Positions 33,915 through 36,497 of a DNA stretch of 64,000 nucleotides are shown one piece after another. Made by a program: the position numbers and the translations under genes. The notes below the pieces were generated by a model. The model ran no database searches and was not told the DNA's origin. It saw nothing but the letters and a program-made list of their open reading frames with translations. Every line of letters starts with the position of its first letter. Position 1 is the stretch's first letter. The stretch is from Rhodospirillaceae bacterium (lineage in GTDB: Bacteria; Pseudomonadota; Alphaproteobacteria; Azospirillales; Azospirillaceae), in the NCBI GenBank assembly GCA_029267445.1, contig JAJUIU010000002.1:62001-126000 (forward strand), in the 5' to 3' direction.

Positions 33915-34430
33915 ATGACCGAGAACGCGGATCGGCTGACCCATTTCGACGAGCGCGGCAACGCCGCCATGGTCGACGTCTCCGCCAAGGCCGACACGGT
34001 GCGGGAGGCGACGGCCCGTGGCCGCATCACCATGCGGCCGGAGACGCTGGCCCTGATCCAGGCGGGCGGCATGGCCAAGGGCGACGTGCTGGGCGTGGCC
34101 CGCCTCGCCGGCATCATGGCGGCCAAGCGCACGGCGGACCTGATCCCCCTCTGCCACCCGCTGATGCTGTCCAAGGTGGCGGTGGAGCTCACCCCGGTCC
34201 TCGAGGCGAACGCCGTCGACATCGAGGCCACCGTCCGTCTGACCGGCAAGACGGGTGTGGAGATGGAGGCGCTGACCGCCGTCTCCGTCGCGGCGCTGAC
34301 CATCTACGACATGTGCAAGGCCGTGGACCGGGGCATGGTCATCGGCGACGTGCGGCTGGTCTACAAGGCCGGCGGCAAGTCCGGAACCTATGATGCGCGT
34401 GGGGGCGACACGCGGGAGGCCGTACCGTGA
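33915..34430 (+). CDS. moaC: Cyclic pyranopterin monophosphate synthase
   Basis: With MoaA, forms cyclic pyranopterin monophosphate, the first intermediate of the molybdenum cofactor. The 171 residues contain the family motifs [24 protein letters not shown] and [27 protein letters not shown], which hold the active-site Lys, His and Glu residues. It lies 4 bases after trpC and overlaps moeA by four bases (GTGA), so the cofactor genes are cotranscribed with trpGDC. This trp-moa linkage is common in alphaproteobacteria. Confidence 0.96.
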
Positions 34431-35629
34431 TCCCGGTGGCGGAGGCGCTGGGCCGCATCCTGGCGGCCTTCGCACCCCTGCCGGCGGAGGTCGTGCCCGT
34501 CACAGCCGCCGTCGGCCGCGTCCTGGCCGCCGATGTCGCGGCCCGGCTGACCCAGCCGCCGGCCGACGTTTCCGCCATGGACGGCTGGGCCGTCCGCACG
34601 GCCGACATCGCCAGCCTGCCCGCCACCCTGCGCCGGATCGGCGCCGCCCCGGCGGGGCAGCCCTTCGCCGGGACCGTCGGCGCCGGGGAAGCCGTGCGGA
34701 TCTTCACCGGCGGCGTCCTCCCCGCCGGTGCAGACACGGTGGTGATCCAGGAGGATTGCGACGACCACGGGGAAACCGTGACGGTGCGGGAGGGGACCGG
34801 CCCCGGCCGCTGGGTCCGTCCCGCGGGTCTGGATTTCCGGGCGGGCGGCGTGATGCTCCGGGCCGGTCGCCGCCTGACGGTGCGCGACGTGGCGCTGTGC
34901 GCGGCCATGAACGTGCCCTGGGTCACGGTCCACCGCCGTCCGCGCGTCGCCATCCTGGCCACCGGCGACGAGATCGTCCGGCCGGGGGAGCCGATCGGTC
35001 CCGGCCAGATCGTCAGCTCCAACAGCATCGCGCTGACGGCCATGGTCGCCCGGTCCGGCGGGGAGGCGATCGATCTCGGCATCGCCGCCGACACGGATGA
35101 CAGCCTGAAGCGCCTCGCCGCCGGGGCCGCCGGGTGCGACCTGCTGGTGACGACCGGTGGGGCCTCGGTGGGCGAGCACGACCTCGTCCGCAGCGCTCTG
35201 GGGACGGAGGGGCTGGCGCTCGACTTCTGGAAGATCGCCATGCGTCCGGGCAAACCGCTGATGTTCGGCCGCTTCGGCGCCACACCCATGATCGGCCTGC
35301 CGGGCAACCCGGTCTCCTCCCTCGTCTGCGCCCTGCTGTTCATCCGGCCGGCACTCAGGCTCATGCAGGGGGAGGACGCCACGGCCACCCTCACCCGCCG
35401 CGCCCGGCTCGGCGCCCCTATGCCGGCCAACGACAGGCGCCAGGATTACGTCCGCGCCACGCTGCGGCCGGGGGACGACGGGGTGCCCGTCGCCACCGCG
35501 TTCCCCAAGCAGGACAGCTCCATGCTGAGCTTCCTGGCGGAATCGGACTGCCTGATCGTCCGCCCACCGCTCGCCCCGCCTGCCGCCGCAGGCGACACGG
35601 TGGAGATCGTGCCGCTGGACGACATCTAG
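34427..35629 (+). CDS. moeA: Molybdopterin molybdenumtransferase
   Basis: Inserts molybdate into adenylated molybdopterin. The 400-residue protein shows the four-domain MoeA layout: [10 protein letters not shown] near residue 47, [17 protein letters not shown] in the N-terminal part, the MoCF-biosynthesis (MogA-like) core with ATGDEIV and [13 protein letters not shown], and [12 protein letters not shown] followed by GLPGNPVSS, then the C-terminal beta domain. It starts with GTG overlapping the moaC TGA, indicating coupling. It is the last gene of the trpG operon; lexA follows with its own SOS-controlled promoter. Confidence 0.96.
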
Positions 35630-35689
35630 CGTCCGCTCCCGCCCGGGGGTGATGCGCGCGAAAGCGGCGGAATGCTTGACGCCCCCCGT

Positions 35690-35704
35690 GAACTAAACTA
35701 GAAC
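35690..35704. promoter_or_regulatory. LexA (SOS) box 1 upstream of lexA
   Basis: GAACTAAACTAGAAC matches the alphaproteobacterial direct-repeat SOS box GAAC-N7-GAAC exactly. It lies just upstream of the -35 element of lexA. Confidence 0.8.
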
Positions 35705-35710
35705 ATGCTC

Positions 35711-35738
35711 TTGACGTTCCGGTAATGTTCCATATCTT
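35711..35738 (+). promoter_or_regulatory. Probable lexA promoter
   Basis: TTGACG (35711-35716), 16-base spacer, TATCTT (35733-35738), about 55 bases before the lexA ATG. SOS box 2 fills the spacer, so LexA bound there would block RNA polymerase directly. Confidence 0.6.
35716..35730. promoter_or_regulatory. LexA (SOS) box 2 upstream of lexA
   Basis: GTTCCGGTAATGTTC matches GTTC-N7-GTTC, the reverse complement form of the alphaproteobacterial SOS box. It lies between the -35 and -10 of lexA, 11 bases from box 1 and in opposite orientation, so the two boxes form a dyad. Confidence 0.9.
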
Positions 35739-35792
35739 GTGTCGGAACGATGGCCGGTGGCGAGATGCGGGGGCCGAGATGCGGGGGACGCC

Positions 35793-36497
35793 ATGCTGAC
35801 GCGCAAGCAACAGGAGCTGCTGCTCTTCATCCATAACCGCTTGAACGAGGGCGGCGTGTCCCCCTCCTTCGATGAGATGAAGGACGCGCTCAACCTCAAG
35901 TCCAAGTCCGGCATCCATCGGCTGATCACCGGGCTTGAGGAGCGCGGCTTCATCCGCCGCCTGCCCCACCGGGCCCGCGCGCTGGAGGTTCTGCGCCTGC
36001 CGGAGCCGGTGAAGCAGCGGGCCCCGGTGGAGGAGCCGGTGAAGTTCAAGCCGAACGTCATCCGCGCGGACTTCCGGCCGAGCCTGTCGGGCCGGGAAAG
36101 CCGGAGCGACGCGGAGGCCGTCAGCCTGCCACTGTACGGCCGCATCGCCGCCGGCTTGCCGATCGAGGCGCTGCGGGACACCACGGCCAGCATCGACGTG
36201 CCGGGCAGCCTGCTCGCCAATGGGGAGCATTACGCGCTCGAGGTGGCCGGCGACAGCATGGTCGACGCCGGCATCCTGGACGGCGACACGGTCATCATCC
36301 AGCGCACCGAGACGGCGGACAACGGGACCATCGTGGTCGCCCTGGTGGACGATGGCGAGGTCACGTTGAAGCGCCTGCGCCGCAAGGGCAATTCCATCGC
36401 ATTGGAGCCGGCGAACCCGAACTACGAGACGCGGGTGTTCGGCGCCGACCGTGTGCGCATCCAGGGCCGCCTGATCGGCCTCCTGCGGCGCTACTGA
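35793..36497 (+). CDS. lexA: LexA SOS repressor
   Basis: The self-cleaving repressor of the DNA-damage response. The 234 residues have a winged helix-turn-helix (about 1-65; [33 protein letters not shown]), a linker longer than in E. coli (about 70-110), and the S24-peptidase domain: cleavage bond A120-G121, nucleophile S155 (GDSM) and K193 (VTLKRL). The ATG at 35793 gives the usual N-terminus. Two LexA boxes in the upstream gap show autoregulation. It is convergent with comEC. Confidence 0.97.

Follow-up and report, generated by a model that had tools for sequence, protein, structure and literature searches.

Head-to-head LexA boxes at the lexA promoter of an Azospirillaceae genome: a putative autoregulatory operator with mirrored counterparts across Alphaproteobacteria

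The lexA gene of the window, which is the whole 64,000-nucleotide stretch of DNA analysed here, was preceded by two exact LexA boxes in opposite orientation, 11 bases apart (Table 1). This layout had been described in the initial annotation and was confirmed by readout of the sequence. The pair is probably an autoregulatory operator of lexA, in which each of the two head-to-head boxes would hold one LexA dimer and shut an upstream promoter, P1, together with a lineage-specific second promoter, P2. Judged from the comparison of lexA promoters, the mirrored arrangement goes back far in Alphaproteobacteria, with GTTT-N7-GTTC as the usual form of box 2, which resembles an ancient copy of box 1 that is reversed and in most cases weaker.

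Table 1. Features of the lexA promoter region (positions in the window)
Feature	Position	Strand	Remarks
P1 −35	35676–35681	+	TTGACG; conserved in the family; putative promoter function
LexA box 1	35690–35704	−	GAAC-N7-GAAC on the + strand, GAACTAAACTAGAAC; exact
P1 −10	35699–35704	+	TAGAAC, within box 1; conserved in the class logo; putative function
Inter-box spacer, 11 bp	35705–35715	.	ATGCTCTTGAC; dyad centre at 35710
P2 −35	35711–35716	+	TTGACG; from the sigma-70 scan; lineage-specific
LexA box 2	35716–35730	+	GTTC-N7-GTTC, GTTCCGGTAATGTTC; exact
P2 −10	35733–35738	+	TATCTT; from the sigma-70 scan; putative function
lexA coding sequence	35793–36497	+	234 aa; TIGR00498

The gene downstream of the boxes is lexA, and its start codon is the ATG at 35793. 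The whole protein scored 176.4 bits against TIGR00498, above the curated cut-off of 110.95. A longer in-frame reading from the GTG at 35739 was rejected, because relatives use the ATG and the GTG precedes the expected P2 start. The dyad was also rejected as a divergent promoter, since the long open reading frame upstream (34427–35629) and lexA share the same direction. Right before the start codon, GAGATGCGGGGG occurred twice in a short tandem duplication (35761–35791), which may double the ribosome-binding region. When the PDB sequences were searched with the LexA protein (P0001), the best-matching stretch started at residue 105 or beyond in all 20 matches, and none lay in the DNA-binding part (residues 1–104).

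The alphaproteobacterial SOS box is a direct repeat, GTTC-N7-GTTC, which both boxes carried without mismatch, and the lexA pair accounted for the only two exact matches in the 64-kb window. The chance expectation for the window was 1.25 exact boxes, and two or more were obtained in 34 of 100 shuffles. An isolated box is thus unremarkable, and the evidence lies in the pairing, the place and the conservation of the boxes. Chance pairing was ruled out by two controls. The reversed motif gave no match to the paired pattern in the 82 family genomes with 0–30 bases between the boxes, and shuffled downstream sequence, with only the base content preserved, gave a box 2 in a mean of 0.66 and a maximum of 4 of the 68 class promoters. 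The corresponding shuffles in the family gave a mean of 0.96 and a maximum of 5 matches.

The pairing was also rare within the window's own genome of 4.23 Mb, where a pair with an 11-base spacer and at most two mismatches occurred in two places, at lexA (exact) and at one other place with two mismatches. Among the 46 exact boxes examined, which were a subset of the 82 sites listed in this genome, a head-to-head partner with at most one mismatch was present only for the two boxes of lexA and for the one exact box of a microprotein gene. An everted partner was found for two of the 46 and a tandem partner for one (one mismatch). Exact head-to-head pairs with 9–13 bases between the boxes were found in six of 190 class genomes. 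They were located at lexA in G000, G067, G143, G123 (by position) and G249 (by the translation adjoining the pair). The microprotein gene carried such a pair in G012 and also in G067, where it was the second of two. Exact pairs with 5 and 20 bases also occurred elsewhere in several family genomes; those with 5 bases recurred head-to-head, for example at G003:C3:19260-19294, G024:C50:249471-249505 and G058:C3:775618-775652, and may share one conserved gene.

Two sets of promoter-like elements were found around the boxes. The elements of P1, TTGACG and TAGAAC, were separated by 17 nucleotides, and box 1 covered the −10 element. The elements of P2, TTGACG and TATCTT, were separated by 16 nucleotides and formed the sole match of the sigma-70 scan in 35600–35850; P1 was missed because the scan accepts only −10 elements with T as the sixth base. 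Box 2 had been placed in the spacer between the −35 and −10 elements, and it indeed filled the spacer of P2 and also shared the final G of the P2 −35 element. The wider claim that the boxes overlap the lexA promoter held only in part. Both boxes lay over promoter-like elements, as expected at the sequence level of a two-operator autoregulated promoter, but the promoter that had been noted, P2, is lineage-specific, and the conserved P1 had been overlooked. A −35 element with five or six of the six matches to TTGACA was present at the P1 offset (±1) in 72 of the 81 family promoters, and TAGAAC stood as the P1 −10 element in 76. Within the class, TTGAC was found 3–16 nucleotides upstream of box 1 in 58 of the 68 promoters with an exact box 1.

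The lexA gene was found in 81 of the 82 genomes of the family Azospirillaceae, which represented 13 genera; an order-level search yielded the same 82 genomes. Box 1 was exact in all 81 promoters, and a mirrored box 2 with at most one mismatch was located 8–11 bases downstream of it in 79, the exceptions being G015 and G055. The inter-box spacing was 10 bases in 57 promoters, 11 in 19, 9 in two and 8 in one, and thus fell within 9–11 bases in 78 of the 79. A tandem partner at 6–16 bases and two motif controls each gave 0 of 81. Box 2 was exact in 13 of the 81 promoters, namely those of the window, the sister genus g12 and 11 Niveispirillum genomes, and in the other 68 it had a wrong half-site base or was missing. 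In a lexA tree containing 30 of the 81 family genes and three outgroups, the exact box 2, carried by 12 rows, needed two changes; this fits one gain and a decay in g6, but the tree did not establish a single origin. The upstream comparison across relatives showed that both sites are kept, so the outcome that would have spoken against the pair, conservation of one box alone, did not occur. In addition, a third GAAC half-site was seen 6–7 bases after box 1 in 16 of the 81 family promoters (for example, Azospirillum L061–L065) and in one of the 68 class promoters (L251).

In the class sample, a LexA match was obtained in 117 of 142 genomes, some of these matches being weak or partial. The class set consisted of 80 upstream regions of the better matches; partial, split and the weakest full-length matches and the same-genus G219 were omitted, and two members of one genus (G085 and G220) were included. 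Box 1 was exact in 68 of the 80 promoters. One of these, in G185, lay 3 nucleotides from the start codon, is probably spurious and was counted as a box 2 miss. A mirrored box 2 with at most one mismatch was present in 48 of the 68 promoters, exact in two, and absent at this threshold from 20. The spacing was 9–11 bases in 40 of the 48 pairs, and neither a tandem partner at 6–16 bases nor the motif controls gave a match in the 68 promoters. Among 80 named loci, whose genomes partly overlap the class set, box 1 was exact by eye in 75, and mirrored partners were seen by eye in, for example, Azospirillum, Niveispirillum, Nitrospirillum, Kiloniellaceae, Pelagibius and Defluviicoccus. In Rhizobium and Ensifer (L207 and L211), the partner was GTTC-N7-GTTT, with a weakened outer half. 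Two boxes are kept at lexA in relatives, with box 2 usually carrying one mismatch.

The family search for pairs exposed a second locus in many genomes, with 12 bases between the boxes. At the eight loci that were read, the pair preceded a protein of about 29–34 residues, longer in two of the readings, in which a single hydrophobic stretch was recognised by eye. A profile built from these eight sequences matched 75 of the 82 family genomes at E < 1e-5, and a second profile from 21 sequences matched four of 190 class genomes, three of them family members. In the window's own genome, the microprotein was MAFVRDFAALTGLFGVLYGWFWVGSALVA, encoded at C128:39762-39848 if that ATG is the start (locus G000:C128:39586-39848, L322), and its gene followed GAACAAAGAAGCAAC-N12-GTTCCTGTTCCGTTC. 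Loci from 50 of the 75 genomes were examined (L292–L341), and 49 remained after G011 (L319) was dropped. Mirrored boxes with at most two mismatches in total lay upstream of the microprotein at 45 of the 49 loci, 37 of them exact; the loci without a pair were those of G076, G001, G056 and G002. As the microprotein alignment (A1) was seeded by eight sequences beside dyads, the count was repeated without the eight seed genomes and gave a pair at 37 of 41 loci, 29 exact. A −35 element stood in the inter-box spacer of the microprotein promoters with a pair; its TTG took the position that it has in P2 of the window in 44 of these 45 and was one base off in the remaining one. NCBIfam gave no match to the microprotein, and one of eight members matched DUF6903 of Pfam weakly (E 0.015). 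Outside the family, the 190 class genomes contained one borderline match, in G228 (E 9.5e-4), where a similar 32-residue protein was located behind two everted LexA boxes, a GTTC box and then a GAAC box (L349, 1430–1600). The microprotein (~32 residues) is a possible SOS division inhibitor, as suggested by its size and its LexA boxes, and has no clear Pfam or NCBIfam family.

In the favoured reading, the autoregulatory operator, intact LexA would place a dimer on each box and keep both promoters closed. Box 1 would cover the P1 −10 element, and box 2 would sit just downstream of the expected P1 start while filling the P2 spacer. P2 would be a second promoter that arose in the lineage of the window, where an exact box 2 accompanies the P2 −35 element. 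Self-cleavage driven by RecA would lower LexA, open P1 and P2, and allow lexA to be made again. We infer that LexA binds at both boxes, that P1 and P2 are used, and that the two boxes work as one unit, the last because of the orientation, the spacing and the retention of box 1 after promoter loss. This loss was seen in Niveispirillum (g11), in which P1, defined by at least five of six matches at −35 and at least four of six at −10, fell short in nine of 11 promoters, and the −10 element read CGGAAC or AGGAAC in five of 11. The GAAC half-sites of box 1 were exact in all 11 despite the decay of P1; therefore, box 1 is likely kept for a reason besides its overlap with P1. The tight spacing and the retention of box 1 would fit coupled binding.

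How far the two dimers would depend on each other is a separate matter. The initial annotation had proposed that they might bind cooperatively to the mirrored boxes, giving lexA a steeper autoregulation than one box would, and this was considered a reasonable possibility, although short of probable. The spacing was nearly fixed, with a mean of 9.5 bases in the class (sd 1.15 bp) and 10.2 in the family (sd 0.53), whereas the start codon lay at a variable distance from box 2 (sd 32 bp). Furthermore, a 12-base spacer occurred in 41 of the 45 microprotein promoters with a pair, the partners were mirrored only, and box 1 outlasted the decay of P1, all of which favour cooperative binding. The box centres were 26 bp apart in the window, about 2.5 turns, within a range of 25–27 bp. 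This would place the two dimers on roughly opposite sides of the helix, which argues against a simple side-by-side contact of dimers. Steeper regulation also fits poorly with the imperfect box 2 of most relatives and with the double operator of E. coli, which behaved like a matched single operator in the available text of that work (PMC7440846).

It is likewise conceivable, without being the expected outcome, that the operators are independent, with box 1 serving P1, box 2 serving P2, and the mirrored order an accident of origin. Each promoter in the window had its own exact box, and a P2-like −35 element with at least four of six matches accompanied nine of the 13 exact copies of box 2 (g1, g12 and g11) as against two of the 68 other promoters. 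However, box 2 was present in 66 family promoters outside the clade with the exact form, and a recognisable P2 −35 element in just two of these. Box 1 outlives P1, and uncoupled sites need not keep their spacing and orientation.

Beyond the window's lineage, box 2 might instead be a conserved promoter or leader element, a T-rich tract sometimes followed by TATAT, and no LexA site; this was thought improbable. The inner half of box 2 was usually GTTT or GTTG, as such an element would allow (GTTT 34, GTTG 11, GTTC 2 and TTTC 1 in the class; GTTT 63, GTTC 13, GTTG 2 and ATTC 1 in the family), and a TATAT-like sequence followed box 2 in some promoters by eye, with weak conservation in the class logo. 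The outer half, in contrast, was exactly GTTC in all 48 class and all 79 family pairs. The likeness to box 1 also went beyond the half-sites: the class consensus of box 2, approximately ATGTTYnnGTTTKGTTC, matched the reversed consensus of box 1 at 13 of the 17 positions as read from the logo. A matrix built from box 1 only (leave-one-out) detected a downstream site of at least 4 bits in 33 of 66 class promoters (31 of the 33 at 6–12 bases), box 2 being too weak for this test in half of the promoters. In the family it did so in 39 of 81. Every site was in mirror orientation, and one shuffle per promoter gave no site of at least 4 bits in either set. With this matrix, which also carries promoter constraint, box 2 of the window scored 5.8 bits and box 1 29.5 bits. 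An RNA hairpin or attenuator formed in read-through RNA, for which the symmetry of the dyad speaks, can be practically dismissed, since the folded RNA did not exceed shuffled sequences in stability (z +0.94; at least as good a fold in 165 of 200 shuffles) and P1 would start inside it.

A further reading, put forward tentatively and thought less likely than not, takes the four half-sites as one conserved composite operator. Two dimers on opposite faces would lock the promoter from both sides, and the dyad would be kept while promoters shift through it, P1 in one register and P2, like the promoter of the microprotein gene, in another. Within Azospirillaceae, only lexA and a microprotein that halts division would have this device. 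If so, the off-switch of the SOS response and a brake on division would share a device absent from ordinary single-box SOS genes.

The role of the double lexA operator was called unclear in the available text of the E. coli work (PMC7440846). Because a directional box is mirrored at most of the sampled alphaproteobacterial lexA promoters, natural variants make this question testable: box 2 may be exact or weak, P1 present or decayed, and the spacing 10 or 12 bases. Through its recurrence at a microprotein gene across the family, the layout also draws attention to a candidate division inhibitor with no clear entry in NCBIfam or Pfam. Double operators at lexA and the direct-repeat LexA box were known already. 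The mirrored pair seen across the class, and the layout common to lexA and the microprotein gene, are apparently new within the literature searched; no description of a mirrored pair at an alphaproteobacterial lexA was found in this literature, of which coverage was partial, and an earlier report is possible.

The two lexA operators of E. coli are palindromes without direction and are 21 bp apart. The operators described here are, in contrast, directional repeats in mirrored order, with centres 25–27 bp apart and with different promoter positions. The lexA operator of Rhodobacter sphaeroides is GAAC-N7-GAAC-N7-GAAC. It resembles the present promoters in having several half-sites at an alphaproteobacterial lexA, and the third GAAC half-site seen in some relatives recalls this triple run. 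That third GAAC points in the direction of the other two and is distinct from the mirrored GTTC box. For E. coli, the available parts of two sources describe a lexA gene under negative feedback with two LexA operators (PMC9210283, PMC7440846), and no difference in induction, sensitivity, kinetics or fitness was detected between the double operator and a matched single operator (PMC7440846, available text).

The boxes of the window share the half-sites, the direct repeat and the 7-base gap of the alphaproteobacterial LexA box, which is given as GTTCN7GTTC for Caulobacter (PMC12700426), as a direct repeat (PMC3323433) and, for the class, in both orientations (PMC3091678) in the available portions of these sources. 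According to the accessible part of the Caulobacter study, about 97% of the SOS promoters of Caulobacter have one box (PMC12700426), whereas the lexA promoter of the window has two, head to head. That Caulobacter count may have overlooked weak partners of the GTTT-N7-GTTC kind. The microprotein can be likened to SidA of Caulobacter, which the available text describes as a 29-residue inner-membrane SOS division inhibitor acting on FtsW (PMC4211646). The microprotein is about equally short, with one hydrophobic stretch as judged by eye and LexA boxes upstream, and the likeness is one of size and control.
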